NCBI GenBank assembly: GCA_030610855.1
Contig: JAUWQY010000007.1
Coordinates: forward strand, 1 to 63,356
DNA length: 63,356 bases
Direction: 5' to 3'
Source of the DNA: Dehalococcoidia bacterium
Lineage (GTDB): Bacteria > Chloroflexota > Dehalococcoidia > GIF9 > AB-539-J10
Every line of letters starts with the position of its first letter. Within the stretch, counting starts at the first letter, position 1. Shown one piece after another: positions 20,630 to 42,179 of this stretch. The translations under genes and the position numbers were made by a program. The notes under the pieces were generated by a model, which made no database searches, was not told the DNA's origin, and saw only the letters and a list, made by a program, of their open reading frames with translations.

Positions 20630-21472
20630 CTACACGTTCATCTGCATGCCATCGTAGGCAAACTTGATGCGGTCCGACTCCATGGCGCAATAGTCATCAT
20701 AGCTGCGGTTCCAGTACTCCTCAAGATGAACAAACAGAACCTTCTTCGCCTCGATGCGTGCCACCAGTTCGAGCGTCTGTTCGAAGGTATACAGGGTGGT
20801 TCTCGAGATGTGATCCGCCGGGTATTTGAAGTGATGTTTCAGACCACTCCCGAATATCCCCGGCTGGATGACAAGGAGGTCGGGCTGTTGAACCTCAGTT
20901 CGATGCTCGGGGAAGGGCTTGAAATCGCAGGGGGCATGGACAACCCTGCACCCTGGCTTTTCAAAGACGTAAACGAAGGCTAACTGGGAGCCTCGGTCCA
21001 CCGGGATGGCAGTTATCTGAACGTTGTTTATCTGGACTTCCCCCTGAAAAAGCATGAGCCGGACAAAACCCCTCTGCCGGTAGGAATCGAGCAAGGGACC
21101 GTACTGAGACCGGATCTCCCTTATTCGTTCGCCTAGCTGTTCAGGGAGTAGCAAACAAATTTGCTTTTCTGGATAGGCACGCCAGGTGCGAGAATCCAGC
21201 GTGATCTGCTCCACAACGCGCAATCCTTCCACATGGTCCGGGTCCAGATGAGTTAACATCAGATAATCGATGCGACGGATATGACAACGATTCAATTGGC
21301 TTGCGATTTCTGCAGGTGTGTCAATCAGGAGCTTGATATCGTGAAGGAAAGCAGAAGGCCCTGTTCTCGCGTAAGGAATACCCTTCTTCCTGGCTTCCTC
21401 GCAGATGCGGCATTGGCACAGGGGTTTGGGAATAACCATGCACCCCCCAGAGCCCAGGATAGTCCACTTCAT
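20630..21472 (-). CDS. MBL-fold metallohydrolase, PhnP/PqqB-like
   Basis: 280 aa. The N-terminus has the strand MKWTILGSGGCMVIPKP followed by a C-x-C-x2-C zinc-binding segment (LCQCRICEEARKKG), as in PhnP-like phosphodiesterases. The lactamase metal motif is THLDPDHVEG, and later ligands are suggested by HAPCDFKPF and LFVHLEEYWN. Several usual ligands differ from textbook beta-lactamase spacing. It lies 70 bases downstream of the asparagine-synthetase-like gene on the same strand. The substrate is unknown. Confidence 0.78.
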   Translation of the reverse strand: MKWTILGSGGCMVIPKPLCQCRICEEARKKGIPYARTGPSAFLHDIKLLIDTPAEIASQLNRCHIRRIDYLMLTHLDPDHVEGLRVVEQITLDSRTWRAYPEKQICLLLPEQLGERIREIRSQYGPLLDSYRQRGFVRLMLFQGEVQINNVQITAIPVDRGSQLAFVYVFEKPGCRVVHAPCDFKPFPEHRTEVQQPDLLVIQPGIFGSGLKHHFKYPADHISRTTLYTFEQTLELVARIEAKKVLFVHLEEYWNRSYDDYCAMESDRIKFAYDGMQMNV

Positions 21473-21541: not shown

Positions 21542-23026
21542 CTACTTGAAGGGATCCCACCGCACCGTCTGCTTCTCATACGCGGGCGGAAACAGCTTCA
21601 AGAATTCGTCGTAATAAAGGAGTTCCTTGAAAGTGGAGAACGGCATGCCGTAAGCTGATCTGGGTCGGTTCTTTATCTCTTCGGGGCCGATTACCCTGGA
21701 TACTAGCATATCCATGACGTCATCAGTGCCAACCCCCATGGCAAACCTGAGTTTCTCACGATTGGCAATCTTCTCGGGAAGCATGTCGCGGAACGCCTCA
21801 CGCAGAATGAACTTCTCTATCTGTTGCTCTCCGTAAATCTTCCACGCCATCGGTATCTTCTGGGCGAAAGCGACAATCTTGGCGTCCAGGAATGGTATCT
21901 GATACACCACGGCGTTCGCCATCCAGCCCCGGTCGAGGCGCCTCAGAGCAGTGTTGTAGGCGATGTCCAGCAATTTCTGGGCAAGCTGCTCCCGGTGTGC
22001 GTCGCTGGTCACTTTGGGGTTTTTTAGAACCATACGGTATCCCCCAAACAGCTCATCTGCCCCTTCACCAACCAGGACAGCATCGGTGTATTCCTTTGCC
22101 ATCCGCGCAACGTAGTAATTGGAGATAATGCCCGATATGCAGTCCTCGTCAAAACTCTCAAGGTGCCAGACTGCCCTGTGAATCAAATCGGAAATATCGG
22201 AGTCGGTTATCCGGTAGATGTGAAGATTGTGCTCAAGACCGAGGAATTCGGCCATTAGCACGGCATTTTCCAGGTCGGGGCCGGGCGCGCTGTCAATCGT
22301 AGCAGTGAACAAGTGCAGGTCAGGGTTGTACTCCTTGGCGATGGCGGCCATAATAGAGCTGTCCAGACCGCCGCTCAACGAGACGCCCCGTACGCCGGGC
22401 ATTCTTTTCTGCACTGCCTCTATGAGTAGTTGACGGAGGGTCATAGCTGCTTCCTTTATGGTTCCCGGCTCAGGCACGTCAGGAGCAAAAGACTGAAATG
22501 CCTTCAGTCCTCCGCTGGTGCTGTAGATGTGGCCAGGGGGCAACTCATTGACGTCAAAGCGAATGTGGTCTATCAGTCCCTTCATCTCGGTACTGAAGCA
22601 CAACAGGCCATGCTCCGACCCGTAGAAGAGAGGCCTGGCGCCCACAGAATCCCGTGCCAGGATCACTTCGCCTGCGTCAACGATGGCGCACGTGTAGCTT
22701 CCCTCGAGCAGGGAGAAACACTCCTTGCCGTGCTTCTCGTAAAACTCTTTGAACAGCTCAACATCATGCTGGCCCGGGGCTCTTTCGTTGAACAACTCTC
22801 CATCAAAGAGGACGAATGGAGGCCTTGAGAGCGAGCTGCAGCAGGTTCTCTCCGGCACCAGATTGACTTCATTGGCGCCCAGAGCGCCGTGGTGGTCAGG
22901 CAAGGTTCGCACGGCCGCATTGTCTGGACCGCGGTGTCGCATCCGCTCCAGCATCTTGCCAACCTGCTCCCCACACCCCTCGAGCACATCTCCGTGCAAT
23001 GAAAAGATTCCAGCTATGCTTGCCAT
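21542..23026 (-). CDS. asnB: Asparagine synthetase B-like protein lacking the glutaminase cysteine
   Basis: 494 aa. The C-terminal synthetase domain is intact: GVSLSGGLDSSIMAAIA (PP-loop), LFTATIDSAPG, EGADELFGGYR and IPFLDAKIVAFA. The N-terminal domain has the class II amidotransferase fold pattern with RMRHRGPDN and FDGELFN, but begins MASIAGIFSLHG. The position that must be a free N-terminal cysteine (M-C-G-I) is alanine. AAGGAGTG stands 7 bases before this ATG, so the start is firm. The product should not use glutamine directly; ammonia-dependent amidation or adenylation chemistry on another substrate is possible. It is the last gene of the corrinoid methyltransferase run. Confidence 0.85.
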   Translation of the reverse strand: MASIAGIFSLHGDVLEGCGEQVGKMLERMRHRGPDNAAVRTLPDHHGALGANEVNLVPERTCCSSLSRPPFVLFDGELFNERAPGQHDVELFKEFYEKHGKECFSLLEGSYTCAIVDAGEVILARDSVGARPLFYGSEHGLLCFSTEMKGLIDHIRFDVNELPPGHIYSTSGGLKAFQSFAPDVPEPGTIKEAAMTLRQLLIEAVQKRMPGVRGVSLSGGLDSSIMAAIAKEYNPDLHLFTATIDSAPGPDLENAVLMAEFLGLEHNLHIYRITDSDISDLIHRAVWHLESFDEDCISGIISNYYVARMAKEYTDAVLVGEGADELFGGYRMVLKNPKVTSDAHREQLAQKLLDIAYNTALRRLDRGWMANAVVYQIPFLDAKIVAFAQKIPMAWKIYGEQQIEKFILREAFRDMLPEKIANREKLRFAMGVGTDDVMDMLVSRVIGPEEIKNRPRSAYGMPFSTFKELLYYDEFLKLFPPAYEKQTVRWDPFK

Positions 23027-23072
23027 ACAACACTCCTTTGCCGCACGTATACTCGGTGCCTGTAACCACGCC

Positions 23073-23759
23073 TCAGCCCATCTGTCGGTAGGAATCGAGC
23101 ACTTTGACTGCAGCGAAGGCATCAGCACAATAGGCATCGGCACCTATCTCCTGGGCAAACTCATCGGAGACAGCGGCACCCCCTATGAGTACTTTCACAC
23201 TGCTCCGGAGTTTGCTTTCCTCAAGAGCTTTGATCACCACGCCCATCTCAATCATGGTGGTAGTAAGCAGGGCTGATAGGCCCAGATATCCGGGTCTTTC
23301 TTCCCTCACGAACCCGACCACTTTCTCCGTGGGCACGTCTGTTCCCAGGTCATGCACATCGTAACCAGCACCTTTCAGCAAGATAGCAACGATATTCTTG
23401 CCGATATCGTGGATATCCCCCTTTACCGTAGCGATGGCGAATTTCCCCTTAGTCTCCACGTTCGCGGACTCGAGCACCGGCTTCATAATATCCATTGCCG
23501 CTCCCACTGCTTCAGCAGAGGCAAGCATGTCCGGGATGAAGTACTCTTTGGTAGAGAACTTCTCACCGACCACCTCCATCCCAGCAGTCAAGCCCTCGGT
23601 TATTATCACCTGCGGAGAGGTATTCTTGTCAAGAGCTTGTTGCACGAGTTCCACCACACCGGGTGTTCCCGCCAGACTGTCATCTATCCCCACATCCTCC
23701 TGTGTCTTTCTTCCCTGTATCACATTCTCTTTAATCGTCGCAATTATATCCTTGCTCAT
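23073..23759 (-). CDS. Corrinoid-binding methyltransferase protein (second copy)
   Basis: 228 aa. Residues 1-90 form the B12-binding cap-type helical domain (ENVIQGRKTQEDVGI, ITEGLTAGMEVVGEKF). Residues 90-228 are the cobalamin-binding Rossmann fold with GDIHDIGKNIVAILLKGAGY, where D-x-H-x-x-G supplies the lower histidine ligand, then GLSALLTTTM and VLIGGAAVSDEFA. MtbC/MttC-type proteins carry the methyl group on cobalt between substrate and acceptor methyltransferases. The ATG at 23759 follows the stop of the MttB gene directly and has GGGAGAG upstream. The pair is coupled. Confidence 0.93.
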   Translation of the reverse strand: MSKDIIATIKENVIQGRKTQEDVGIDDSLAGTPGVVELVQQALDKNTSPQVIITEGLTAGMEVVGEKFSTKEYFIPDMLASAEAVGAAMDIMKPVLESANVETKGKFAIATVKGDIHDIGKNIVAILLKGAGYDVHDLGTDVPTEKVVGFVREERPGYLGLSALLTTTMIEMGVVIKALEESKLRSSVKVLIGGAAVSDEFAQEIGADAYCADAFAAVKVLDSYRQMG

Positions 23760-23760
23760 G

Positions 23761-25299
23761 CTAACTCTCCCTTTCATAAACGTTAAGTCGGGGTAGTATG
23801 CCAGGAATCTCTTCGAATATTCTGGCAGTTGTCTCTCGATCGATGTGTTCCACCGGTCTTGCCAGCAAATCCTTCATTTGCTCATAGGCAAGCTCAAGAA
23901 CATCGTCCGTTTCACCACTTCCCTCAAAGGGATATATCCCGGAGATTTCTCCACTGCGCAACACAGGGCGAATATAGCTTATGTATAGCTTTTGCGGCGT
24001 AGTCACTACCGCGCGTATCTGCTTCAGCGCTGCTTCCATCTCCGGCTGATCAATCCGCGGTTGTCGTAAGAAAAACTTTATCATCTTGAAGTGGGCATCA
24101 TCCAAGACCGCCTGGAGGAGACAGAAGACAGAATTACAGTCCAGAAGACCAAAGGCGCAGTGCAGGTATTGAGGTCCTGACATGGCCACCACTATATCCG
24201 AGAACAGCCTCTCTATTGATGATTGCTGGCCAGGTATCTTCGTGTCAGAGACGCCAGAGGTAGAATAGTTGGGTATCCCGTAGAAACGTGCCATCTGGGC
24301 GCAGTCGATGTTGTACTGACTGGTCTCAACAGAGCCGTAGGAATCACCCAGGGTGTCCATCCTGGCTCTGACTGGCACGCTGCCGTAGAGCACTGGGGTC
24401 CCCGGTTTTACCAGTTGCCCTAGAGTTATGCCTGCCAACAACTCCGCATTTATCTGAGCCATGATACCGGCTTCCTTTATAGGTGCGGTGGTGCCTGCTT
24501 GGGGTGATGATGACACAGCAACCGGCAATCCTCGGCGGCACACTTCAATGAAAGTGGCTGTGGTGTCATCAACGAACTGGAGTGGGCTCTTCACAAGGCA
24601 GGTGATAAACGAGATGATGGGGTTCTCCTCGAGTGCCTTTTTACCTCCAACGATGAGTTCTGCCATCCTCACCACGTTGTCAAGCTGCTTCAAACTGGTC
24701 AACCCGCTCATAAAGTGTTTGGTATTGTTGTTGAGTGAGGCGAAGAACTTGTTGACGTCTTTGTTCTCCTCGGTTATCTCGCGATCCTGGATGTTCACAG
24801 TGCGAATGTAGCCATCAACCATCTCCAGATGCTCGCAGACATGGGCTGACTGGCACAGGTCCTCAACCGTGCCCCGCCTGGGCTTGAACTCAGGCACCCT
24901 GATTTCCCTGCTAGCGTCAGACTTATGCACATAGGTAGGAAACTCCACATCCAGCCAGATATTGGTCTCTGAGCCGGTGATTAAATATACCCTCGGCTCG
25001 TCACCCTGCATGATGAGGGTATTATCCGGGTTACGAGCCCCCAGTTTCACGGTCCTGGGAGCATTATCCAGCGCATTTAATATCAATTGCTCTGGAATCT
25101 TCACCTGCCAGCTCCGACGGTCACCGGGGATAGACTCAACCGCTGCACCGTGACTGTGGAGTATATTCGCCGCTTCCTCGTTGAAGCTAATCAACCCGGG
25201 GGCAGTCAGTATCTCCATGGAAGCCTGGTGAATTAGCTCCACCTGCTCCTTCGTCAACCTCTCATATGGTCTATCAACAAGTATTCCTGCTCTTGGCAC
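23761..25299 (-). CDS. MttB-family (non-pyrrolysine) corrinoid methyltransferase, copy 1
   Basis: 512 aa in one uninterrupted frame, so no amber codon for pyrrolysine. Family blocks include ERLTKEQVELIHQASMEIL, the KHFMSGLTSLKQLDNVVRMA segment (equivalent of the KH-x-x-x-G region), SSPQAGTTAPIKEAGIMAQI and the Y-G-I-P-N-Y-S-T-S-G-V-S-D core. Relatives such as MtgB demethylate glycine betaine and others act on proline betaine, carnitine or butyrobetaine. The GTG start has AAGGAGG 8 bases upstream. Followed without a gap by its corrinoid protein, it probably transfers a methyl group from a quaternary amine to Co(I). The substrate cannot be read from sequence. Confidence 0.9.
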   Translation of the reverse strand: MPRAGILVDRPYERLTKEQVELIHQASMEILTAPGLISFNEEAANILHSHGAAVESIPGDRRSWQVKIPEQLILNALDNAPRTVKLGARNPDNTLIMQGDEPRVYLITGSETNIWLDVEFPTYVHKSDASREIRVPEFKPRRGTVEDLCQSAHVCEHLEMVDGYIRTVNIQDREITEENKDVNKFFASLNNNTKHFMSGLTSLKQLDNVVRMAELIVGGKKALEENPIISFITCLVKSPLQFVDDTTATFIEVCRRGLPVAVSSSPQAGTTAPIKEAGIMAQINAELLAGITLGQLVKPGTPVLYGSVPVRARMDTLGDSYGSVETSQYNIDCAQMARFYGIPNYSTSGVSDTKIPGQQSSIERLFSDIVVAMSGPQYLHCAFGLLDCNSVFCLLQAVLDDAHFKMIKFFLRQPRIDQPEMEAALKQIRAVVTTPQKLYISYIRPVLRSGEISGIYPFEGSGETDDVLELAYEQMKDLLARPVEHIDRETTARIFEEIPGILPRLNVYERES

Positions 25300-25346
25300 C
25301 AGATTCCTCCTTCAGATGATAAGGCTACAATCGAATGATTGCTCTG

Positions 25347-26039
25347 CTAGTTCTCTGTGCCAGAAGCAAGAGCTTCCACCACAGCTACGGCCTGAAAGCC
25401 ATCTGCGCCATATCCATCCGCGCCGATGCTCTTAGCAAACTCCTCTGAGACAGGTGCTCCGCCGACTATAATCTTCACTTGATCCCTAAGCCCATTCTCC
25501 TCAAGTATTTGTATCACATCCGCCATCCGGGCCATGGTGCTGGTGAGCAGGGCGGACAAACCCAGAAACTGTGGTCTCTCCTCTCTCACCGCATCTACAA
25601 TGACCTGAGTGTCGATATTATGCCCCAGGTCTTTTACAGCGTATCCTGCCCCACGGAGCAGAATGGACACTATGTTCTTGCCAATATCGTGAAGGTCGTC
25701 TTTTACCGTGGCCACAATGATAGTGCCCTTGGTCTTAATGCCACTCCTGGCAAGACGGGGCTGCAATATCTCCATGGCTACGCCCACTGCTTCGGCCGAG
25801 GCCAGCATATCAGGAATGAAGTACTCCCCCGCTTCAAACTTCTGCCCCACAACCTCCATACCACCCGAAAGCCCCTTAGTGACTATGTCCTGAATAGGCA
25901 AGTCAGAGGCAAGAGCCTGTTCAACAAGCTCGGTAACACCGGGCTTACCTACCATTCCTTCATCCATGCCTTCGTCATCCTTTGTTATCCTCCCCTGGAT
26001 AACATTCTCTCGGATCAAGCCGATTATGTCCTCTGGCAT
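25347..26039 (-). CDS. Corrinoid-binding methyltransferase protein (first copy)
   Basis: 230 aa. Same architecture as the copy at 23073: helical cap domain followed by the cobalamin fold with DDLHDIGKNIVSILLRGAGY (D-x-H-x-x-G histidine ligand), GLSALLTSTM and IIVGGAPVSEEFA. GGAGG stands upstream of the ATG. It lies between the methyl-THF methyltransferase and MttB copy 1. Two corrinoid proteins for two MttBs suggests each methyltransferase has its own carrier, or two substrates. Confidence 0.93.
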   Translation of the reverse strand: MPEDIIGLIRENVIQGRITKDDEGMDEGMVGKPGVTELVEQALASDLPIQDIVTKGLSGGMEVVGQKFEAGEYFIPDMLASAEAVGVAMEILQPRLARSGIKTKGTIIVATVKDDLHDIGKNIVSILLRGAGYAVKDLGHNIDTQVIVDAVREERPQFLGLSALLTSTMARMADVIQILEENGLRDQVKIIVGGAPVSEEFAKSIGADGYGADGFQAVAVVEALASGTEN

Positions 26040-26161
26040 TATCTTCCTCCAGTTTCAATAGTATATTACACTGCTTGGCGCGCTGAGCCTCGCGCAAGCC
26101 AACTCGGATCAGTATTGAAGCTTGCGGATTTCCAACGGTGCTCCAGAAATCTGCCCCGGGT

Positions 26162-26971
26162 TCAATCTACTATGTTGCCCTTTCTGTGTGCCCTCAAATA
26201 TGCCCTGCATGACGGGTCCTTTCCTGTTAGCATATCGGCGACCTTGATAAGGCTGATCGCTTTACTATCAAGCGGGTCAATAATCACGGCGTCTAAGCCA
26301 GCATAAGCAGCCATAAGCAGGAAGGCACGGTTCACTAACTTCCTGCTGGGCAAACCATACGAGATGTTACTCAATCCCATCACTACGCCGGCATCAGGAT
26401 AGCGCGATTTGATCTGCTCTATGGTCTTTAATGTGACCAATCCCTGACGTGTATCCACAGCGATAGGTAATACAAGCGGGTCGAATAATACTTGTTCTGC
26501 CTTTACACCCAAACCAGTCAGGTATGCCATTATCCGTTCGCAAGCAGTCAGACGCCCTTCGACGTGAGCCGGTATTCCGTCCGGTCCCATGGCCAGTGCT
26601 ATTACCCAGGCCTGCCGCTCGGCTACCAATGGACCAATAGATTCTAGTCTCGCTGGTTCCGCAGTGACCGAATTAACTATCAATCTTTCACGATCGTATT
26701 CCTTTAGGGCAGCCTCAATAATCTCCGGAGAATCACTGTCAATAGCCAGTGGCTTCTCAGTGGCAGCCTGGACTATTCCCACCAGCCACCTGGCATCTGC
26801 GATTGCTTTCCGGAGCGAGCCGTGACCGCTGCCCGCGTTTACATCGATGAAATCAGCTCCGGATGATGCTTGAGCCTTAGCCAGGTTTGCCAAGAACTCC
26901 TCATCCCGCTTGGCGATAGCCTCAGCCACTAACTTATTTGATGCGTTTATGTTTTCTCCGATTACAAGCAT
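26162..26971 (-). CDS. Methyltetrahydrofolate:corrinoid methyltransferase (MtgA/AcsE-like)
   Basis: 269 aa, single pterin-binding (DHPS-like) TIM barrel. Family landmarks: MLVIGENINASNK at the N-terminus, FIDVNAGSG, KPLAIDSDSPEIIEAAL, LIVNSVTAEPARL, FDPLVLPIAVD and GLSNISYGLP (the G-x-S-N-x-S-x-G-L-P block). MtgA moves the methyl group from methyl-corrinoid to tetrahydrofolate in glycine betaine catabolism; AcsE does the same reaction in the Wood-Ljungdahl pathway in the opposite sense. Between MttB copy 2 and a corrinoid protein, the MtgA-type role is the likeliest. It follows the MttB stop by 3 bases. Confidence 0.9.
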   Translation of the reverse strand: MLVIGENINASNKLVAEAIAKRDEEFLANLAKAQASSGADFIDVNAGSGHGSLRKAIADARWLVGIVQAATEKPLAIDSDSPEIIEAALKEYDRERLIVNSVTAEPARLESIGPLVAERQAWVIALAMGPDGIPAHVEGRLTACERIMAYLTGLGVKAEQVLFDPLVLPIAVDTRQGLVTLKTIEQIKSRYPDAGVVMGLSNISYGLPSRKLVNRAFLLMAAYAGLDAVIIDPLDSKAISLIKVADMLTGKDPSCRAYLRAHRKGNIVD

Positions 26972-26974
26972 ATC

Positions 26975-28414
26975 TTAATCCACTATATCCTCTATTTCTG
27001 CAAACACCTGCTGTCTTGTTGCGTCAGGAAGGCTATATCTACGATTGGCTAGCAGTTCCTTTACCTTTTCCGCCGCTCTCTCCCAGGTAGTCTTTCTACC
27101 ACCAGCTTCCCAGTCCTCCCTGCTATCACGGTCACTCAGGGTAGGCTGATAATGCTCGCCGCGCATAAAGCGTCTTGTATGCCTGGCAGCTACGAAATTG
27201 CCCCCCGGTCCTACTTGCTTTATGAGGTCAAAGGCCAGAGTGTCATCATCTACTTTGATTCCATCTACGGCTCTCATCACCATTCCCAGCATCTCGTTAT
27301 CTATGACATACTTCTCATAGCACACGGTCATTGCGAATTCCATAAGCCCAGCAGCATCATGAATGAAATTAGCTCCTGAAAGGGCACATAGCAGGGCGGT
27401 CAAAGCAGATTCATAGCCACTTTGGGCATCGAGCGTTTTGGAATCGGTCATGCCACCGGTAGCATAGAAGGGAAGCTGGTAAAACTGGGCCATCTGGGCA
27501 CCGGCGGCATTGAGCAGACCCATTTCTATTGAACCAGCAAGATACCTCAGGTTCCTGAGGTCTGTACTGGTGGCTACCGAGCCAAGGATGACCGGAGTCC
27601 CCGGGTTGGTAATCTGGGTAAGCATTACTCCCATCAGTGAGTCTACGGTCTGGACCACCAGATTTCCGGCGAGTGTAACCGGCGAAGTGGCACCACACAA
27701 CGGTTCTGCAGGACAGGCTACAGGTATGCCGTTTCTGGCAATGGTTACGAGCAAGTCGCCATATGTCTTGTCAATCCTTAAGGGGCTTATGATGCAGGCT
27801 ATCATTGAGATGAGAGGGCGTTGCCTGAGTGCCTGAGCGGAACCTGCCACTATCTCCGCCATCCGTATCACGTTCTTCACCCCTTCCAGAGTATAGACGC
27901 CTCCCATCACATGCTTCGTAGTATTGTCCAACCCGGCAAAGAAGCGGTTTACATCCACTTGCTCGACAGGCAACTCATTGGGATAGGTAGGTAACATGAA
28001 CAGATGGATGTTATCCAGCTTGTCAACCAATCCGGCGATGCATCTCAGGTCTTCCATGCTTGCCAGTCTTGTTTGGTTAGCAGTAGGGTTATAGACATAA
28101 AGTGCCGTGCCGCCTGTTCCAGCGTACACTCGTCGCCCGCCTAAAATAACGTCATGTGCTTCGTCCTGTCCACAGAGTCTGATCTCCGATGGTGCCACGT
28201 CGACAAGCTCCTTAACTTTACTCTCATTCAGCCGCACCAGGTGCTTTTCCCGATCCACTATGGCTCCGGCTCCTGCGAAAAGCTCCAGTGCCGTGTCTGA
28301 CTGCACTTCAAAACCCACCTCCTCAATCACCTGCATCGCAGTCCGGTGCACCTTCGATATAGACTCTTCAGTTAGAACCTTAAAACTGCCTCCATCCAAT
28401 CCTTTGCGGGTCAT
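26975..28414 (-). CDS. MttB-family (non-pyrrolysine) corrinoid methyltransferase, copy 2
   Basis: 479 aa from an ATG at 28414. The longer frame from 28444 contains the ribosome-binding site (AAGGAGGT) inside its own codons, so I prefer the ATG, though the spacing of 13 is long. There is no internal amber codon. Blocks match copy 1: ISKVHRTAMQVIEEVGFEV, TKHVMGGVYTLEGVKNVIRM, CPAEPLCGATSPVTLAGNLV and FYATGGMTDSKTLDAQSGYE. Identity to copy 1 is low by eye, so the two may use different substrates. The gene begins 11 bases after the MetH-activation-like gene ends. Confidence 0.9.
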   Translation of the reverse strand: MTRKGLDGGSFKVLTEESISKVHRTAMQVIEEVGFEVQSDTALELFAGAGAIVDREKHLVRLNESKVKELVDVAPSEIRLCGQDEAHDVILGGRRVYAGTGGTALYVYNPTANQTRLASMEDLRCIAGLVDKLDNIHLFMLPTYPNELPVEQVDVNRFFAGLDNTTKHVMGGVYTLEGVKNVIRMAEIVAGSAQALRQRPLISMIACIISPLRIDKTYGDLLVTIARNGIPVACPAEPLCGATSPVTLAGNLVVQTVDSLMGVMLTQITNPGTPVILGSVATSTDLRNLRYLAGSIEMGLLNAAGAQMAQFYQLPFYATGGMTDSKTLDAQSGYESALTALLCALSGANFIHDAAGLMEFAMTVCYEKYVIDNEMLGMVMRAVDGIKVDDDTLAFDLIKQVGPGGNFVAARHTRRFMRGEHYQPTLSDRDSREDWEAGGRKTTWERAAEKVKELLANRRYSLPDATRQQVFAEIEDIVD

Positions 28415-28425
28415 TGTGTTTGGCT

Positions 28426-29109
28426 TTACCTCCTTCCCGGACAATCTTGTTTGTTGCAGAACTCGCAGGGGTTATAGCTCTCCGCCTTGCCGTCTGGGGA
28501 CCCGATACCGACGATTCCCGAAATCGACTTCTGGGGAATCATCAGACACTCTCCAGTCAGGCGAACCCCTAATGTATGACCGGTTAGAGCATGGAAAAGC
28601 ATCCGTTGCTGACCTATATTCCAGTCACAATAGCCGGGGCTGAAGCGTCGGCTAGTGACAAGCCCCTCAGTCTCAGCTATCTCTCTTATCTTGTCTTGGA
28701 CACTGTCCGCTGCTTTCTCCACAGCACTTGACCCCACTGCATCTAAAACGGTCGCCTGGAGTACGAGCCCATCTCTGGCCAGCTTCCACGCTGTCTCCTC
28801 AAGGTATTTGTCTATTGTGACCAAGAATATCGCAACCTGCTGGCATTGCTCCAACAACTGGACGACAACCTGGCTCTTGAAGATAATCGAATCTTCAATG
28901 AAGGCGATAGAACCCCGAGCCCACTCCACATCCTTGATAATATATGAATATAACGGATTAATAAGCTGATGCGCGTGTTTTGCACAATCATCAACTAAGG
29001 AAGACATACGCGCTGACAGTTTATAGTTATCGTCATATCCTATGTAGTGACACACTTGCTTCTTGTCGATTTCAACATCCACACCGCCTTTGCCGTCGGT
29101 GACAATCAT
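28426..29109 (-). CDS. MetH-activation-domain-like protein, candidate corrinoid reactivator
   Basis: 227 aa. The C-terminal half has RRFSPGYCDWNIGQQR, the R-x-x-P-G-Y-x-x-W motif of the vitamin B12-dependent methionine synthase activation domain that binds SAM. It ends NPCEFCNKQDCPGRR, a C-x2-C-x4-C-P tail found in stand-alone members. The N-terminal half is helical. In MetH this domain supplies SAM and an electron to rescue oxidised Co(II). As first gene of the corrinoid operon it probably re-methylates or reactivates the two corrinoid proteins. No RamA-type ferredoxin reactivator is in the window. AAGGAGGG lies 12 bases before the ATG. Confidence 0.85.
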   Translation of the reverse strand: MIVTDGKGGVDVEIDKKQVCHYIGYDDNYKLSARMSSLVDDCAKHAHQLINPLYSYIIKDVEWARGSIAFIEDSIIFKSQVVVQLLEQCQQVAIFLVTIDKYLEETAWKLARDGLVLQATVLDAVGSSAVEKAADSVQDKIREIAETEGLVTSRRFSPGYCDWNIGQQRMLFHALTGHTLGVRLTGECLMIPQKSISGIVGIGSPDGKAESYNPCEFCNKQDCPGRR

Positions 29110-29708
29110 ATTACTAGAACCCTCCTTTCATCTCGCGCGCTACGAACACATGCTCCTACGCTGGATGAGACACAATCCGTGAATAACCGACTACGGGTCC
29201 GGGGTGATCTGAGGAACGTGGGAAAGATTAGTTTCTGGTCATTTGAAAGACCTTGAGAGTCAGGATCTGAACAAAATCAACTGCGCATTATGAACAAGCC
29301 GATTAGACTATTATCTCTCTATAGAAGAAAAGCAGATGGGTAACTCCGGATCAATCTCACCCTGCTTACTTCACAGCATGTAATACCCTCCTTGTGAGCC
29401 TTTCTCCCTCCTTCCTCGATCATAAGCCAACATATGATATCACAAAACCCACCTCTCTGTCCGCTTGGATCTGAGTCATCTAGAATCTAACCAGAGGTGG
29501 GCTGTCAGATGGCAAAGAGTCTGACTGGATAATAGCCATTCAGCCTGCTTAAGTCCTTAGAAGGAGGCAAAGCCAGGCTGTTGAGAGGCTATAGAAAGGG
29601 ATAGACTCGGACAACGATAGTGAATCCCTCAACCAGATTCTGCACAGGTATTGTCAGAGGGAAGGCCTTGAATCCACCCCAACAAGGGGCCCTTGCTGTC
29701 CGACAGGG
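29110..29708. other. Intergenic, upstream of the corrinoid operon and downstream of acyl-CoA genes
   Basis: About 600 bases without a gene. It should hold the promoter of the corrinoid operon at the left end and the terminator of the acyl-CoA operon at the right end. A 9-bp inverted repeat (CCCACCTCT at 29448-29456, AGAGGTGGG at 29493-29501) is present but with a 36-base loop. No known cobalamin riboswitch box is evident to me. Confidence 0.45.
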
Positions 29709-30842
29709 CTAAAGCCCCAGCTCAACAGCTATCACTTCCCTGTGCAAGTCGGTGTCGCCGGCAGCAAATTCTGCCGCCCTGACGCGACGATAATAAAGCC
29801 CAATATCATGGTCCATGGTATATCCGATAGCCCCATGAGCAGTGATGGCTTCAATGCAAATCCGCTGGTAAGCTTCATTGGCTTTGGCCTTGGCTGCGGC
29901 AATTTGCCAGGACGATGGTGAACCAATGCTTATTCCCCACGCTGCCTGATAGAGCAAATGCTGAACCGCATCCGCATCAATCAGCATGTCAGCCAGTTTA
30001 TGCTGTATCGCCTGAAAAGAGCCGATCGGCCGGTCAAACTGAACCCGTTCCTTGGCGTAGCTGCTGGTCATCTCCAGAGCAGCCCGACACGCTCCGGACA
30101 TCTCGGCACACTTCAGCACCGCAGCCCGTTGTAATACAAAGTCCGCTATGTCCCAGCCACTGCCTATCTCACCCAGTACATAATCTTCCGGCACCGCTAC
30201 TTTGTTGAAGCTGACTTTGAACTGTCTATCACCGCCTATAGTCGGGATCGTCTCGACCTCCACGTTTGGTTCGCTGGCATCCACCACAAAAAGCGTGATT
30301 CCGTCCTCAGGTCTTTCTCCGTCCCCGTTCCTGCCCGCCACCAGGATGTAATCAGCAATATGAACATCAGTAACAAAGAGCTTGTACCCCTGGAGAACAT
30401 AATGTGTCCCTTCCAATACAGCGCGGAGTTTTACGTCAGAAGCTTTGTACCTGCCTGACGACTCGGCCAGAGCGAAAGCCCAGATAGCCTCCCCCTTGGC
30501 TATCTGCGGCAGATACTTAGTTTTCTGCTCACTGCTTCCATATTCAAGCAGAGGCAGGGCACAGAGGGCGATCGTGGAAAAGAAAGGACCGGGCACGATG
30601 TTCCTTCCCATCTCTTCCATCAAGACAACCAGCTCCATAAAGCTGGAATTCATGCCGCCGTATTCGTCTGGAAGGACGAGCCCCATCCAGCCCAGTTCCG
30701 CCATCCTGCGCCACAATTGCGGATCATAGCCTTTCTCATCCTTATCCATTTGCCTGACCTTAGCTTTGGGACACTCCTTTGTCAGAAAATCCCGGGCTAA
30801 AGTCCGCAGCATGTCCTGCTCTTCTGTAAAACTGAAGTCCAT
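29709..30842 (-). CDS. Acyl-CoA dehydrogenase (second subunit of pair)
   Basis: 377 aa, full length. The N-terminal domain starts MDFSFTEEQDMLRTLARDFL; the middle beta domain has FALAESSGRYKASDVK, a degenerate form of the usual Y-x-x-T-E-P-x-x-G-S-D flavin/substrate block; the C-terminal helical domain has FDRPIGSFQAIQHKLADMLI and AHGAIGYTMDHDIGLYYRR. Because the middle motif is altered while the upstream partner keeps it, the two may be subunits of a heteromeric enzyme, as in the FadE28/FadE29 type. It is the last gene of the acyl-CoA operon. Confidence 0.88.
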   Translation of the reverse strand: MDFSFTEEQDMLRTLARDFLTKECPKAKVRQMDKDEKGYDPQLWRRMAELGWMGLVLPDEYGGMNSSFMELVVLMEEMGRNIVPGPFFSTIALCALPLLEYGSSEQKTKYLPQIAKGEAIWAFALAESSGRYKASDVKLRAVLEGTHYVLQGYKLFVTDVHIADYILVAGRNGDGERPEDGITLFVVDASEPNVEVETIPTIGGDRQFKVSFNKVAVPEDYVLGEIGSGWDIADFVLQRAAVLKCAEMSGACRAALEMTSSYAKERVQFDRPIGSFQAIQHKLADMLIDADAVQHLLYQAAWGISIGSPSSWQIAAAKAKANEAYQRICIEAITAHGAIGYTMDHDIGLYYRRVRAAEFAAGDTDLHREVIAVELGL

Positions 30843-30954
30843 GCTAACCCCCTAGAAGAATGTGCCTTGTTATCAACCTCAATACTATGGAGCGTCTGGA
30901 TTTCGTGCTCTACTTACAGCTACGAGCATGCCATCAAGCGATCTCCGAAAAACC

Positions 30955-32157
30955 TCAGTATGATTTTGGCAGACCCAGTCCGAACCGCGCGATGACGCTT
31001 TTTTCTATCTCAGCGGTGCCAGCCGCGATTGCCTGACCGGGAAACCCCAGGTATGCGCCCTGTATGGCCCCCCTGAGTTTCGCCCATTCGGAATCCGGAT
31101 CGACCTGAGAGTATACTCCCAGAAGCTCCGCCCCAGTGACAGCTACCCGTCTCATCACCTCGTCACTCATTACCTTGTTCCTCGAAGATTCATATACAGG
31201 GATCTGACCTTGACTTATCCGCCAGGCAATCTGATAGGCAAACATCTTCAGCACTTCCAAATCGATAGCCAGGTCGGCTAGCTTGGCCCGAACAACAGGA
31301 TTCTGTGACAACGGCCGGCCCTCATACTCGGTGTGACCGGCATACTTAGCTAGCTCTTCTAACACTCTCCTGAAATGACCGTAGGTCATAGGTGCTGTGC
31401 TGCGCCGCTCAAAAGCCAGTGCCTGCATAAGAAGATACCAGCCTTTGTTCTCCTCACCAACCAGGTTATGAGCCGGCACCTTCACATTGTCGAAGAACAC
31501 CTCATTGAAATGATGCCGTCCATAGTAGTTCAAAATAGGATTAACCGTGACACCGGGGTTCTTCATGTCCACGATGAAGATGCTGACTCCGTGGTGTTTC
31601 TTCGCGGCATTGGGATCTGTCCTGGCGGCCAGCCAGCACCATCTTGCCCGGTGAGCAGCGCTCGTCCACACTTTCTGCCCATCTATGATGTAGTTATCTC
31701 CATCCCTCACCGCCCGTGTCTGAAGATTGGCAAAGTCTGAGCCAGCATTCGGTTCACTGTAACAGGTGCACCAGACACCATCTTTTTCGCCAGAGGCAAT
31801 CAACGGCAGGTATTTGCCCATCTGCTCCTTGGTGCCGAACATCATGAGGCAGGGTCCTACCCACTGTGTGCCGCTTATGCCCATCCATGCCCCCGGTATA
31901 CCCCAGTAGGCTATCTCCATCTCGTAAACAGTCTGTTCCCAGAGCGAGGCACCGCGTCCGCCATATTCCTCTGGCCAACTCATAACAAGCCAACCCCTCT
32001 GGGCCAGCTTTCTGGATATGGCTATCTCGAACTCGAAATCTCTGCACTCTCCGTCGATTAGGGTGCTGCGCCTCCAGCCTGGAGGCAACTCGGCTTCGGC
32101 GAACTTGCGGATTTCCTCCTTCAGGGCCAGTTCCTTTTCGCCCAGTCTGAAGTCCAT
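30955..32157 (-). CDS. Acyl-CoA dehydrogenase (first subunit of pair)
   Basis: 400 aa from the ATG at 32157, which has GGAGAG just upstream; the frame's longer start adds 24 unrelated residues. Canonical blocks: WPEEYGGRGASLWEQTVYEM, CYSEPNAGSDFANLQT, GQKVWTSAAHRARWCWLAAR and the C-terminal GTAEIEKSVIARFGLGLPK. It oxidises acyl-CoA thioesters to 2-enoyl-CoA with FAD. It pairs with the more divergent dehydrogenase downstream (113 bases). Two-gene acyl-CoA dehydrogenases are typical of steroid and other branched acyl-CoA pathways. Confidence 0.9.
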   Translation of the reverse strand: MDFRLGEKELALKEEIRKFAEAELPPGWRRSTLIDGECRDFEFEIAISRKLAQRGWLVMSWPEEYGGRGASLWEQTVYEMEIAYWGIPGAWMGISGTQWVGPCLMMFGTKEQMGKYLPLIASGEKDGVWCTCYSEPNAGSDFANLQTRAVRDGDNYIIDGQKVWTSAAHRARWCWLAARTDPNAAKKHHGVSIFIVDMKNPGVTVNPILNYYGRHHFNEVFFDNVKVPAHNLVGEENKGWYLLMQALAFERRSTAPMTYGHFRRVLEELAKYAGHTEYEGRPLSQNPVVRAKLADLAIDLEVLKMFAYQIAWRISQGQIPVYESSRNKVMSDEVMRRVAVTGAELLGVYSQVDPDSEWAKLRGAIQGAYLGFPGQAIAAGTAEIEKSVIARFGLGLPKSY

Positions 32158-32260
32158 TCTCTCCTTCCCGTGGTTTTGTCGTGCCAGGTGTGGTGCCTTC
32201 GCCCCTGTTAGTCTGTAACGTAGCTGCAAACTGAGCCCGATGACATCATGCAGCGAGCCG

Positions 32261-33160
32261 CTATTCTGATTCGGGCGGATCCGGATTGACCAATTCCCCG
32301 GTTATCGTTGCCGGCATGAACATGAATAGCTCATCGATTGTCCATCCGCCAGCCTTGACTAGCTGCTTCTCCAATACCGGCTCAGAATAGAGCCCGATCC
32401 GACCTGCTTCCACATAGAATGTCCGCCCGGTGACATTAGCAGCGTCATCAGAGGCGAGCCATACCACTAGAGGAGCGATATCCTCAGGCCTCATACTCTC
32501 AAACCTGGCTATGATTCCTGGCCGAGCTTTCCTCATTTCGTCGCTGAGGGTAAGCCGGGTCCCTGCACTAGGCCTGATACAGTTGCACGTCACGCCGTAT
32601 CTGCCCATATCCCGCGCCACTTTTCTTGTTAAGCCAACGATTCCCTCTTTAGCCGCACCGTAATTGGCTTGCCCGTACGTAGTAGCATAGAGACCTGCTA
32701 CAGATGACGTGTTTATTATTCGTCCGTATCTTTGCTGGCGGAAGAAGGGGCTCACTGCTCTGATGACATAGAAATGACCATAGAGGTGCACTTTGAGCAC
32801 CGAATCCCACTCCGCCTCACTCATGTTGAACACCATCCTGTCACGGAGAATCCCGGCATTGCTGACCAGTATATCGATCCTACCAAAGCTGTCCGTGGCA
32901 GTCTTCACGATGCTCTCGCCGCCCTGCATAGTGGCCACCGAGTCATAGTTGGCAACTGCCTCCCCGCCGAGCCTTCTAATCTCTGCCACTACCTCCTCTG
33001 CTGGTGAAGTTGATGCCCCGGACCCATCAACAGCGCCTCCCAGATCATTGACCACTACTTTAGCCCCTTCCGATGCTAACGCTAGAGCTTCTCCCCGGCC
33101 GATGCCTCGTCCGGCACCGGTTACTATAGCTACTCTACCCTCGAGCCTCTTCGCCACCAT
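32261..33160 (-). CDS. SDR family 3-hydroxyacyl-CoA dehydrogenase-like protein
   Basis: 299 aa. Rossmann motif VAIVTGAGRGIGRGEALALA, NAG (LVSNAGILRD), and the catalytic S-x(12)-Y-x3-K (SSVAGLYATTYGQANYGAAK). The long VVVNDLGGAVDGSGASTSPA insert is characteristic of the SDR domain of multifunctional enzyme type 2 / 17-beta-HSD type 4, and of actinobacterial Hsd4B-like proteins. It probably oxidises a 3-hydroxyacyl-CoA after hydration by the MaoC proteins encoded upstream in the same operon. The C-terminal extension after ~260 is longer than in FabG. Confidence 0.88.
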   Translation of the reverse strand: MVAKRLEGRVAIVTGAGRGIGRGEALALASEGAKVVVNDLGGAVDGSGASTSPAEEVVAEIRRLGGEAVANYDSVATMQGGESIVKTATDSFGRIDILVSNAGILRDRMVFNMSEAEWDSVLKVHLYGHFYVIRAVSPFFRQQRYGRIINTSSVAGLYATTYGQANYGAAKEGIVGLTRKVARDMGRYGVTCNCIRPSAGTRLTLSDEMRKARPGIIARFESMRPEDIAPLVVWLASDDAANVTGRTFYVEAGRIGLYSEPVLEKQLVKAGGWTIDELFMFMPATITGELVNPDPPESE

Positions 33161-33250
33161 CGATCTCCTTATGTGGTTTCCCTAGATTTCCACATGGCAG
33201 ACACTTTGTACCCAGTGAATCTCTGGTCAAGCGGGACTGAACGCCTAGAC

Positions 33251-34030
33251 CTACATATAAATCCCGGCAGAAACGTTCAGCACTTGTCCGGTAATAAAGG
33301 CAGCATCATCGGAGGCGAGGAACAAGACAGGCTTAGCGGCATCTTCAGGCGTCATCGGTTTGACTTGAAGAAGGACCAAATCCCTTACCTTCTTTGGTAT
33401 ACCCACTGCCTCTCCTGCTACCTCTTCCTGCTGCGTTTCTTTTTCTCCCGTCAATCGTGTATCGACAAAGCCGTAGGCTATGACATTGCAGGTAATGCCA
33501 AATCGTCCCCATTCCCTGGCTACGGTCTTGCTTAGTCCGATAAGACCTGACTTGGCAGCAGAGTAGTTAATCTGGCCGATGTTTCCCATCAGTCCAGCTA
33601 CGGAGGCCACATTGATTATCCTGCCGTTGTGTCCTTCCTTCAGCATGTATTTGGAAGCTGCCCTGATACAATTAAAGGTCCCCTTGAGGCTGATGTCAAT
33701 ACATATGTCCCATTGGGCATCTGTCATCTTATGTATTAAAGCATCTCTGGTAAGCCCGGCATTATTGACCAGAACATCTATTTTGCCGAATTTCTCTACT
33801 GCCTTATCCATCACTTTCTGACAATCTCCGGGTTTCGTCACATCGCCAGCACAGCCATCGGCTCTACCTCCGGCAGCTTTTATGTCGTTGACTACCTGGA
33901 TAAGCGGTGCCTCATCAATATCGGTCACATAAACGGCAGCACCCTCCCTGGCAAACAACAGAGCATCAGCTCTGCCTATACCCCGCGCCGCCCCTGTCAC
34001 CACCGCCGCTTTACCATCCAGTTTTCCCAT
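33251..34030 (-). CDS. FabG-like SDR oxidoreductase
   Basis: 259 aa, classical SDR. It has AAVVTGAARGIGRADALLFA, LVNNAGLTRDALI, and the catalytic SVAGLMGNIGQINYSAAKSG (Y-x3-K). The C-terminal end DDAAFITGQVLNVSAGIYM is typical of 3-oxoacyl reductase relatives. In this operon it is likely the second hydroxyacyl-CoA dehydrogenase, perhaps for a different chain length or for the last step before thiolysis. NAD versus NADP use cannot be settled, though D at the end of strand 2 (VTDIDEA) favours NAD. Confidence 0.88.
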   Translation of the reverse strand: MGKLDGKAAVVTGAARGIGRADALLFAREGAAVYVTDIDEAPLIQVVNDIKAAGGRADGCAGDVTKPGDCQKVMDKAVEKFGKIDVLVNNAGLTRDALIHKMTDAQWDICIDISLKGTFNCIRAASKYMLKEGHNGRIINVASVAGLMGNIGQINYSAAKSGLIGLSKTVAREWGRFGITCNVIAYGFVDTRLTGEKETQQEEVAGEAVGIPKKVRDLVLLQVKPMTPEDAAKPVLFLASDDAAFITGQVLNVSAGIYM

Positions 34031-34127
34031 CTTTACCTCCTTGAACCTTGTTCTTCTGAAGACACGGGCTCGACTCAGTACTCCTACGGAACTGCCCCTG
34101 GATAGCTATCAAAATCAAAGCCTTCGC

Positions 34128-34598
34128 TCATTTCCCCATTCGTGTGGGTAAGACAACCAAGGCCGAGCCAGGCGTCGTCCTATCTCCATTTCCATTCTCC
34201 ACCCAGATCTCGCACTCAACGAGGTGCTCCCCGTCATCCTCGTATTTCCTGGTCACCTTGCCTTTACACCACCAGGTTTCGCCGTCGCGAGGCTCATCAA
34301 TCGTCTTCATTTTGCGGGGATAGTCCATACCCCGGTATTGGCAGGACAGCTTCTTGAGTTTCCCCTCTTCTCCAATCCAGTCAGTCATCAATTGTCCTAA
34401 CCACGCACGCTTAAGCGCGCCATGTACGATGGGAGCCCCCACGCCCATAGCTTTGGCGAAATCATCCTCATAATGCAAAGGGTTGAAATCTCCTGATGCG
34501 CCTGCCCATCGGACCAGCATGCGAGTTGTAGCGATCTTAGCCAGCGGGGTTATCTCAGTACCTACCTCAACGTCCTCACAGCAAACCTGCTTAGGCAT
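34128..34598 (-). CDS. MaoC-like hydratase, catalytic subunit
   Basis: 156 aa hot-dog fold. The hydratase-2 motif is present as AGASGDFNPLHYEDDFAKAM, with D and H five residues apart at the expected catalytic sites, and VGAPIVHGALKRAWLGQL follows. This is the R-specific enoyl-CoA hydratase type. The gene just upstream encodes a second hot-dog protein in which the histidine is replaced, so the two probably form a heterodimer like ChsH1/ChsH2 or HadAB. Confidence 0.85.
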   Translation of the reverse strand: MPKQVCCEDVEVGTEITPLAKIATTRMLVRWAGASGDFNPLHYEDDFAKAMGVGAPIVHGALKRAWLGQLMTDWIGEEGKLKKLSCQYRGMDYPRKMKTIDEPRDGETWWCKGKVTRKYEDDGEHLVECEIWVENGNGDRTTPGSALVVLPTRMGK

Positions 34599-34629
34599 CT
34601 CTCTTCCTAGAACAAAGCAGTAGAACAGA

Positions 34630-35103
34630 CTAGAACTGGATCAATGTCGACCTGCTCTTCAGCACTTCATTGCCATTCTGGTTCACAAAAGCGATCTCCG
34701 CTGTCGTGAACATGGTTCTGCCCAGTCTCGTCTCGCGCTCGCTTATGCTGGCAATTCTGGGTGTGGCAGTTAGTACATCGCCAGCACCAATAGGTTCAAT
34801 GAACTCGAGTTCGACACCGCCATCGAGAATCCTCGGAGGTGCTCCAGCCTTAACCAGAGATTCGAACAGTTTTTCGGTAGGGCGTCCGGCCTTGACTGGC
34901 CAACCCGTGAAACCGGGAGGAGCCACAAGACGGCGATGCTTCGTCTTACTGGCAAAGTCCGGGTCATTGTACAGAGGGCTGGGGTCACCTATGGCCTGCA
35001 CATACCTCTGGATCGCTCCTTCCTCGACCTTGAAAACGATGGCCTCAGAAGGCACTCCTATCAATTTCCGTAGCTCATCCGTAATCAAACTACCTTCAGC
35101 CAT
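34630..35103 (-). CDS. FAS1-like MaoC dehydratase subunit, probably non-catalytic
   Basis: 157 aa. The N-terminal FAS1-like dehydratase pattern is visible (EEGAIQRYVQAIGDPSPLYN, RRLVAPPGFTGWPV). At the site where MaoC has D-x-x-x-x-H the sequence reads AIGDPSPLYND, with tyrosine instead of histidine, so it probably binds the CoA moiety but does not catalyse. It is 31 bases upstream of the catalytic partner. In steroid and mycolate pathways such split pairs are obligate heterodimers. Confidence 0.82.
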   Translation of the reverse strand: MAEGSLITDELRKLIGVPSEAIVFKVEEGAIQRYVQAIGDPSPLYNDPDFASKTKHRRLVAPPGFTGWPVKAGRPTEKLFESLVKAGAPPRILDGGVELEFIEPIGAGDVLTATPRIASISERETRLGRTMFTTAEIAFVNQNGNEVLKSRSTLIQF

Positions 35104-35129
35104 AGCTAGTCTCCTTGATTGAGTTCCTT

Positions 35130-36332
35130 CTATAACCCTATGATAGCCACACTAACGATGTTCATGGCGGGAAAACCGCCCATGTTGTGGGTCAGACCTA
35201 GCTTGGGATTCTTGATCTGTCGTTCCGGGAGCTGGGCTTTGCCCTGCAATTGCTTGTACATCTCATACAGCATCCTGAGACCAGAGGCGCCAATAGGATG
35301 CCCGAAGCACTTCAATCCACCATCCGGCTGAACAGGCTGGGGGCCATCAAGATTAAAACGGCCGGCCTCGATGTCCTCCCTGACTCTCCCCCTGGCGCTG
35401 AACTGCAGATCTTCCATAGTCACTGCCTCAGTTATGGAGAAGCAATCGTGCACCTCAGCCATGCTTATCTCCTCACGAGGGTTCTTTATCCCCGCCTCCT
35501 TGTAAGCCAGAATGCCAGCTCGGTAACCGGTCTCAACATGAGCTCCGTCCCATTTGGTGTACATCAGTTCCTCGCCCGAACTCACGGCGATTTGCAGTGC
35601 CTTGACACGTATGGGGTCTGGCCGAAACTTCTTAGCCATGTCAGCTCTGGTTATGATTGCGGCCGCTGCGCCATCACTGACTCCACAGCAATCAAAAAGC
35701 CCCAGTGGCCAAGCAATGATAGGCGCACTCAGTATCTGTTCCTCAGTCACTTCGCGGCGCAAATGCGCCTTCGGGTTCCGTGCCCCGTTGTAATGGCTTT
35801 TGGCTGACACTTTAGCCAGCATTCTCTTGCCTTCCTCCGGACTGAGGCCATACACAGCAAAGTATCGGGTCGCCAGCATGGCAAAAGCCCCAGGCGCGGT
35901 CAACTTGGGCATAATCAGCGCATTCTTTGTTCCCATAAGACCAGGGCCACCCGGAAGCCCACCGTATCCGGTGTCTTTGAGCTTTTCTACACCCAGAGCC
36001 AGGGCTATGTCATAAGCTCCTGAAGCTACACCGTAACATGCACCCCTGAACGCTTCGGTGGCAGTAGCACAAAAATTTTCCGTTCTGGTGACCGGAATAA
36101 AGGGTAACTTCAATGCTAAAGCCATAGACGTAGCCCCTTTTCCTACACTCTGTTCCTCAAAATGCACGCCAAACCAGGCTGCATTGATGTCCTTTTTTTC
36201 TATGCCAGCGTCCTCAATACATTCTTGAAAAACGTCTACCATAAGGTCGTCTGCACTCTTGTCCCATAGCTCTCCAAACTTGGTGCAACCCATCCCTATA
36301 ATAGCAACCTTGTCTTTGATACCTTCTGCCAT
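35130..36332 (-). CDS. SCP-x/lipid-transfer-type thiolase
   Basis: 400 aa. Thiolase fold with nucleophile block TRTENFCATATEAFRGACYG, the AEVHDCFSITE motif and CFGHPIGASGLRMLYEM near the C-terminus. This is the nonspecific lipid-transfer-protein (SCP-2 associated) thiolase branch, which includes actinobacterial Ltp2-type enzymes and archaeal acetoacetyl-CoA thiolases that work with DUF35 partners. It is encoded next to an HMG-CoA-synthase-fold/DUF35 fusion. It may catalyse thiolytic or retro-aldol cleavage; which one cannot be told from sequence alone. Confidence 0.88.
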   Translation of the reverse strand: MAEGIKDKVAIIGMGCTKFGELWDKSADDLMVDVFQECIEDAGIEKKDINAAWFGVHFEEQSVGKGATSMALALKLPFIPVTRTENFCATATEAFRGACYGVASGAYDIALALGVEKLKDTGYGGLPGGPGLMGTKNALIMPKLTAPGAFAMLATRYFAVYGLSPEEGKRMLAKVSAKSHYNGARNPKAHLRREVTEEQILSAPIIAWPLGLFDCCGVSDGAAAAIITRADMAKKFRPDPIRVKALQIAVSSGEELMYTKWDGAHVETGYRAGILAYKEAGIKNPREEISMAEVHDCFSITEAVTMEDLQFSARGRVREDIEAGRFNLDGPQPVQPDGGLKCFGHPIGASGLRMLYEMYKQLQGKAQLPERQIKNPKLGLTHNMGGFPAMNIVSVAIIGL

Positions 36333-39818: not shown

Positions 39819-39820
39819 TT

Positions 39821-40615: not shown

Positions 40616-40616
40616 T

Positions 40617-42032: not shown

Positions 42033-42117
42033 CTATCATCCTCCGAGTCTCAATGGTCCCGCTCACAGCATCTATACCCCGACCTGCAGAAAATGCGATA
42101 ATGTTCCTAAGGAAGAC

Positions 42118-42146
42118 TTGCCATTTTGAAGAAAAAGATATTATAT
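42118..42146 (+). promoter_or_regulatory. Promoter of the hut operon
   Basis: TTGCCA at 42118-42123 and TTATAT at 42141-42146 with a 17-base spacer, 34 bases before the hutH ATG. AAAGGAG lies 8 bases before that ATG. The spacer is A-rich. Confidence 0.65.
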
Positions 42147-42179
42147 ACGGAAGAGAGCTCTTTGGAAAGGAGATGAGCA

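Follow-up and report, generated by a model that had tools for sequence, protein, structure and literature searches.

A conserved corrinoid methyltransferase cassette with two MttB-family proteins and a stand-alone MetH-type reactivator in a Dehalococcoidia bacterium

Contig JAUWQY010000007.1 of a Dehalococcoidia bacterium (assembly GCA_030610855.1) carries a cassette of genes for corrinoid-dependent methyl transfer. Here, "the window" is the whole stretch of DNA that was analyzed, 63,356 nucleotides of that contig. The host is a small uncultured sediment bacterium with a genome of 1.63 Mb that is 95% complete. Seven open reading frames (ORFs) run from 29109 to 21542 on the minus strand, with intergenic distances that go from overlap up to 122 bases. 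An initial annotation had assigned seven proteins on one strand to the families named below; the ORFs lie where it placed them, on the strand that it gave, and profile matches agree with its families. With a probable eighth member at the end, the genes are:

28426-29109, minus strand: ActD, a stand-alone MetH-type reactivation protein that binds S-adenosylmethionine (AdoMet, or SAM), 227 amino acids; Pfam Met_synt_B12 above cut-off
26975-28414, minus strand: MttB1, a non-pyrrolysine MttB-family methyltransferase, 479 amino acids; PF06253, in a clade of its own
26162-26971, minus strand: MtgA/AcsE-like methylcorrinoid:tetrahydrofolate (THF) methyltransferase, 269 amino acids; NF005719 and Pterin_bind
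25347-26039, minus strand: corrinoid protein 1, 230 amino acids, with motifs DLHDIG and GLSALLT; B12-binding and B12-binding_2
23761-25299, minus strand: MttB2, a divergent non-pyrrolysine MttB-family methyltransferase, 512 amino acids; PF06253, in a clade of its own
23073-23759, minus strand: corrinoid protein 2, 228 amino acids, with motifs DIHDIG and GLSALLT; B12-binding and B12-binding_2
21542-23026, minus strand: AsnB-like protein, 494 amino acids, with the N-terminus MASIAGIF; Asn_synthase and GATase_7
20630-21472, minus strand: metallo-beta-lactamase (MBL)-fold hydrolase, the probable eighth member; Lactamase_B_2, after a 69-base gap from the AsnB-like gene

Taken together, these genes form a corrinoid demethylation operon that is conserved and of a known type. 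What is new in it is the pairing of two MttB clades, a MetH-type reactivator without RamA, and an AsnB-like partner whose glutaminase is dead. The initial annotation had overlooked three features: the missing glutaminase Cys of the AsnB-like protein, the invariant C-terminal Cys motif of the reactivator, and the MBL-fold gene that often comes next. Three of the starts probably lie inside the longest ORF, to judge from ortholog starts and ribosome-binding sites: ATG 28414 for MttB1, ATG 23759 for corrinoid protein 2, and ATG 23026 for the AsnB-like protein. The longest-ORF alternatives begin at TTG 28444 for MttB1, which gives a 489-residue numbering, and at 23777 for corrinoid protein 2.

Sequence comparison indicates that the cassette is a real unit rather than a product of chance, because about 80 named loci show this order of genes. 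These belong to Chloroflexota, to Bacillota (Syntrophomonadaceae and Peptococcaceae), and to metagenome-assembled genomes (MAGs) labelled Deltaproteobacteria or Syntrophaceae; the taxonomic labels of some MAGs are possibly wrong. The closest named cassettes come from Dehalococcoidia MAGs, with 84-92% identity in MttB2. Neighbors were counted only in loci with room for them on the contig, and ORFs were read mechanically, so that split or frameshifted genes are missed. Counted this way in the named loci, a corrinoid protein directly follows MttB2 in 69 of 71, MttB1 lies upstream in 48 of 52, ActD is found in 38 of 44, and MtgA in 42 of 59. Distances between loci for MttB1, MtgA, ActD, the AsnB-like protein, and the MBL-fold protein correlate with those for MttB2 (r 0.34 to 0.74), and none of 999 permutations gave values as high. 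Related genomes share history, of course, so these correlations speak for co-inheritance rather than for function. The MBL-fold ortholog lies downstream in 13 of the 32 cassettes with room, and its distances track those of MttB2 with r = 0.74; in relatives, a protein with 65-88% identity to it again follows the cassette. Glutamine synthetase was considered as a further member and rejected, as it is downstream in the closest relatives only.

Both MttBs match PF06253 over the TIM-barrel core (MttB1 with 363.6 bits, MttB2 with 188.5 bits, cut-off 25). Both remain under the 525-bit cut-off of the TIGR02369 equivalog, with 457 and 263 bits, respectively. Their TIM barrels align with those of MtgB (2QNE) and MttB (7XCL), and on these alignments the methyltransferase core is kept in both. 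No other MttB was detected in the host genome.

Neither protein uses pyrrolysine (Pyl), as had been held from the outset. Neither gene contains an in-frame TAG, the host genome has no PylS above cut-off, and the position of Pyl334 is taken by Met332 in MttB1 (in the 489-residue numbering) and by Val350 in MttB2, as it is by Leu in MtgB. One RNA-model match falls at this point:

27352-27451, minus strand: match to Rfam PYLIS_3 inside MttB1, 57 bits against a cut-off of 38

The match begins at codon 332 (27451-27449), an ATG that lines up with the TAG for Pyl. As a Pyl recoding element it was rejected, given the ATG and the absence of PylS above cut-off. Since the match starts at the Pyl-aligned codon, what the model picks up appears to be coding sequence of mttB, and the model would mislabel the MttB1 gene. 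Genomes of the same family (locus L147 and genomes G020, G030, G034, and G043) hold 7 to 17 MttB genes, some of them with an in-frame TAG; one of these groups with the pyrrolysine MttB.

The phylogeny proposed for the two proteins was built with 73 MttB sequences. It puts MttB1 and MttB2 in separate clades (support 100/98 and 100/100, respectively), each spanning Chloroflexota, Bacillota, and deltaproteobacterial-labelled loci. MtgB and the pyrrolysine MttB, which sit on long branches, fall outside both. In MttB, Met249 shifts upon binding of the corrinoid protein and opens substrate space (PMC9842639). At this position stand an invariant Glu247 in MttB1, Ser265 in MttB2, and Leu in MtgB. Pairwise alignment also places a His in both proteins at MttB Tyr364, an assignment that is tentative because the multiple alignment puts a neighboring column there. 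The comparison of active sites with MtgB that the initial annotation had proposed agrees, by alignment, in the hydrophobic residue at the Pyl position and disagrees in the pocket residues. Because the pockets are fixed yet different, the alignment suggests that MttB1 and MttB2 bind different ligands, which may be two separate substrates or successive stages of a single one.

The MtgA-like enzyme has a Pterin_bind domain and scores 275.9 bits with NF005719 (methyl-THF:corrinoid), above the cut-off of 259. Both corrinoid proteins have what is generally expected of them, the DxHxxG cobalamin motif and a B12-binding domain with a B12-binding_2 cap domain. They fail the more specific NF047996 (glycine-betaine MtgC; 205.5 and 192.1 bits, cut-off 370) and NF047995 (about 159 bits, cut-off 310). 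Elsewhere the host genome encodes a separate AcsE with a carbon monoxide dehydrogenase/acetyl-CoA synthase (CODH/ACS) cluster on contig C43, and four MTHFR homologs. Family profile searches, on which all genome-wide absences given here rest, found no B12-binding_2 protein beyond the two in the cassette, no MetH, and no match to Meth_synt_2 (MetE or core-MetE). As of 2020, core-MetE had been reported from every known Dehalococcoidia genome (PMC7005905).

The AlphaFold2 model of ActD (predicted local distance difference test score, pLDDT, 82; predicted template modelling score, pTM, 0.82) best matches Thermotoga TM0269 (1j6r, TMt 0.84, E 2e-10) and MetH reactivation domains. ActD shares with these the fold and the AdoMet-site motif, and it stands alone, as TM0269 does. 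The motif, RFSPGYCDWxxxxQ, is conserved, and RxSPGYCDWxxxxQ is invariant among 12 orthologs. ActD departs from the MetH domain and TM0269, however, in adjoining catabolic MttB genes. It also ends in CxxCxxxxCxxRR (Cys3), likewise invariant among 12 orthologs, whereas the sequence match to 1j6r stops before that segment. As a guess, Cys3 might hold a metal site.

The host genome has no other Met_synt_B12 protein and no match to the RACo C-terminal (ASKHA) domain PF14574. The fold of the model, together with the lack of any RACo or RamA in a genome that is 95% complete, bears out the view that the cassette has a stand-alone MetH-type reactivator rather than RamA. This had been called unusual. 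So it is when set against published systems with RamA or RamQ, but beside this cassette the type is common within the class. Close ActD homologs occur in about 21 of 148 genomes of the class, every one adjoining MttB1, so this type of ActD is not rare; here, it comes without RamA. Divergent relatives of ActD adjoin RACo-type proteins in loci L179 and L182.

Substrate clues come from relatives. An ATP-binding cassette (ABC) transporter of the OsmF/ProV osmoprotectant type lies between MttB1 and MtgA in L068, immediately before MtgA in L072 (where the contig end cuts the cassette), and downstream of the cassette in L101. Since the single-cell genomes of L068 and L072 are nearly identical, the independent cases number two, not three. 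In L082 and L099, a MetF gene separates ActD from MttB1; in L071, MetF adjoins MttB1. In L108, L116, and L121, the cassette is followed by glycyl radical enzymes that carry GC[LI]E and RVAGY motifs; these enzymes are related to choline trimethylamine (TMA)-lyase and to dehydratases, and fall below every equivalog cut-off. A more distant glycyl radical enzyme is present in L106 and another in L114. Together, transporters, MetF, and glycyl radical enzymes point to quaternary amines and methyl-THF, and name no compound. Where the substrate of a non-Pyl MttB member is known, it is in most cases an acidic quaternary amine (PMC12155760).

Other neighbors deserve a record in their own right. All five glycyl radical enzymes follow the corrinoid gene in the MttB2 ~55% group, most of them accompanied by an activating enzyme. 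In L054, L055, and L084, an isochorismatase-type amidohydrolase replaces corrinoid protein 1, and histone-deacetylase-family proteins come after a SAM-methyltransferase-like gene in L101 and L105; these are repeated neighbors of an amide-chemistry kind.

The cassette is best read, with a probability of about 0.75, as a catabolic corrinoid methyltransferase operon that carries methyl groups from quaternary ammonium compounds to THF. MttB1 and MttB2 would each pass a methyl group from a betaine- or choline-like compound to a Co(I) corrinoid protein, and would serve either two related substrates or two successive demethylation steps. The MtgA-like enzyme would transfer the methyl group from the corrinoid protein to THF. 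The methyl-THF might then enter the Wood-Ljungdahl pathway via the separate AcsE and CODH/ACS, or be oxidized by way of the MTHFR homologs. ActD would rescue adventitiously oxidized Co(II) by reductive methylation with AdoMet, giving a methyl-Co(III) that MtgA could discharge. Transfer from quaternary amine to THF is the best supported direction because the cassettes of some relatives include ABC transporters of the betaine/choline type or MetF. Methylated amines or betaines had been proposed as the methyl source at the start, and the proposal gains from the kept core, the lack of pyrrolysine, the MtgA that passes its model, and the transporters and MetF of relatives.

Several points weigh against this reading, of course. 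The window's own cassette has no transporter or substrate-specific gene; for want of a transporter gene, "complete", the word that the initial annotation chose for it, is too strong. MttB1 and MttB2 lie outside the characterized members that were placed (MtgB and Pyl-MttB), so the case for the substrate class is drawn from context. The C-terminal region of MttB2 does not match the dimerization loop of MttB and MtgB, and the AlphaFold2 model of MttB2, made from a 13-row alignment, reached a pLDDT of 41 and was not used. No quaternary-amine system with an AsnB-like protein was found in the literature. Because the genome is 95% complete, its absences are not absolute.

The AsnB-like protein, which the initial annotation names without comment, is an unusual component of the cassette, and a conserved one. 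It has the synthetase motifs SGGLDSS (the ATP loop) and GEGADELFGGY. Its N-terminus is MASIAGIF in place of the MCGI of glutaminases; the nucleophile Cys is absent here and from the cassette-form orthologs. With AsnB (1ct9) and beta-lactam synthetase (1jgt) it shares GATase-like and synthetase domains and the ATP-pyrophosphatase motif. It lacks the Cys as beta-lactam synthetase-type enzymes do, and its synthetase half is nearer AsnB. It is probably an ATP-using, glutaminase-dead ligase that takes ammonia or an amine, and it may perhaps tailor the substrate or handle the demethylated amine. The choline kinase MthK, which adjoins the phosphocholine enzyme MthB (PMC12155760), sets a precedent for a tailoring enzyme that spends ATP within an MttB cluster. 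The AsnB-like protein could also be a passenger, an ordinary ammonia-dependent asparagine synthetase co-transcribed with the operon. The host genome has no other Asn_synthase protein above cut-off, and the synthetase motifs are intact, as might be expected of such an enzyme. However, the cysteine-less form follows the corrinoid protein in 45 of the 62 loci with room, with a canonical MCGIAG AsnB as an additional neighbor in 7 of these 45, so that a mere passenger is rather unlikely. The canonical form stands alone in 4 of the 62, and in most of the remaining loci this position is taken by a glycyl radical enzyme or by a SAM-methyltransferase-like gene.

Whether there are two substrates is another matter. 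The cassette had been called a two-substrate island, which names one option; a sequence of two demethylations fits just as well. Here, MttB1 would take the first methyl group (for example, from a betaine to give a dimethyl compound) and MttB2 the next. This is a sub-variant of the catabolic reading, not exclusive of it, and a real possibility at somewhat less than even odds. The two MttBs co-occur across phyla with correlated divergence, and L106, L107, L108, and L121 each pair a single corrinoid protein with both. Against this, characterized non-Pyl MttBs use fully quaternary amines, a tertiary amine being a poorer methyl donor, and the window shows no enzyme for the remaining demethylation steps.

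The flow might also be reversed, with methyl-THF methylating the corrinoid proteins for biosynthesis, for example of methionine, in place of the missing MetH and MetE. The genome indeed lacks Meth_synt_2 and any other MetH-type B12-binding or activation domain, and the MtgC of Roseobacter works in betaine demethylation and methionine synthesis alike (PMC12478193). But the cassette has no homocysteine methyltransferase domain, and catabolism better fits the transporter and MetF insertions in relatives. Characterized MttBs, too, are all known to take a methyl group from a donor. This makes the reverse direction very unlikely. A donor that is not a quaternary amine, such as a halomethane, a methoxy compound, or a methylated sulfur compound, as in mec/cdm systems, would account for AsnB-like, MBL-fold, isochorismatase-like, and histone-deacetylase-like neighbors, all foreign to known betaine systems. 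It is nevertheless highly improbable, with osmoprotectant-type transporters found within the cassette or next to it in two lineages. The mec dichloromethane cassette itself was rejected, since MecE is of the MtaA/CmuA family (PMC9768040) and the enzymes here are of the MttB family. The most elaborate form of the catabolic reading would have an obligate two-MttB pathway for a novel quaternary amine, an AsnB-like protein that joins or finally amidates the substrate, and a Cys3 metal centre in ActD instead of RamA; all of this together is doubtful.

Known systems frame these proposals. The MtgB-MtgC-MtgA glycine betaine system of Desulfitobacterium hafniense has, like the cassette, a non-Pyl MttB with a hydrophobic residue at the Pyl position, a stand-alone corrinoid protein, and a pterin-binding methyltransferase to THF. 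The cassette differs in having two MttBs in clades outside MtgB, Glu247 and Ser265 where MtgB has Leu, a MetH-type reactivator instead of RamA, and an AsnB-like gene. MtpB, MtcB, and MtyB of Eubacterium limosum indicate that several MttBs can share one MtqC/MtqA pair (corrinoid protein and THF methyltransferase); the reactivator there is RamQ, unlike ActD. The MthBCAK phosphocholine system of E. limosum is likewise an MttB-corrinoid-THF cluster with an adjoining ATP-using tailoring enzyme (PMC12155760), a kinase there and an AsnB-type adenylating ligase here. No published account of this gene combination was found in the literature searched, with most subscription papers outside its reach. That literature also yielded nothing pertinent on a connection between AsnB and MttB, on MetH activation domains as separate proteins in systems of this kind, or on CpaM.

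About 600 bases upstream of ActD (29110-29708) lack a convincing gene or Rfam match and might be regulatory. Beyond these lie an acyl-CoA dehydrogenase/thiolase/MaoC-type block and then a 2-oxoacid:ferredoxin oxidoreductase (29709-36332 and 39210-43616); the opposite strand encodes an aromatic amino acid (histidine-type) lyase. None of these has an evident link to the cassette. A c-di-GMP-II riboswitch scores above cut-off at 3703-3786, plus strand, upstream of the ORF at 3964-5283.

So far, a physiological substrate has been assigned to only six members of the MttB family (PMC12155760). Two more clades, well supported and with invariant pockets, offer direct targets in the search for substrates. 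A MetH-type reactivator in a catabolic system without RamA makes the rescue of Co(II) without RACE testable with purified parts. And for the Dehalococcoidia, widely known from sediment MAGs and mostly without a cultured relative, the cassette would give a defined methylated source of growth or carbon.

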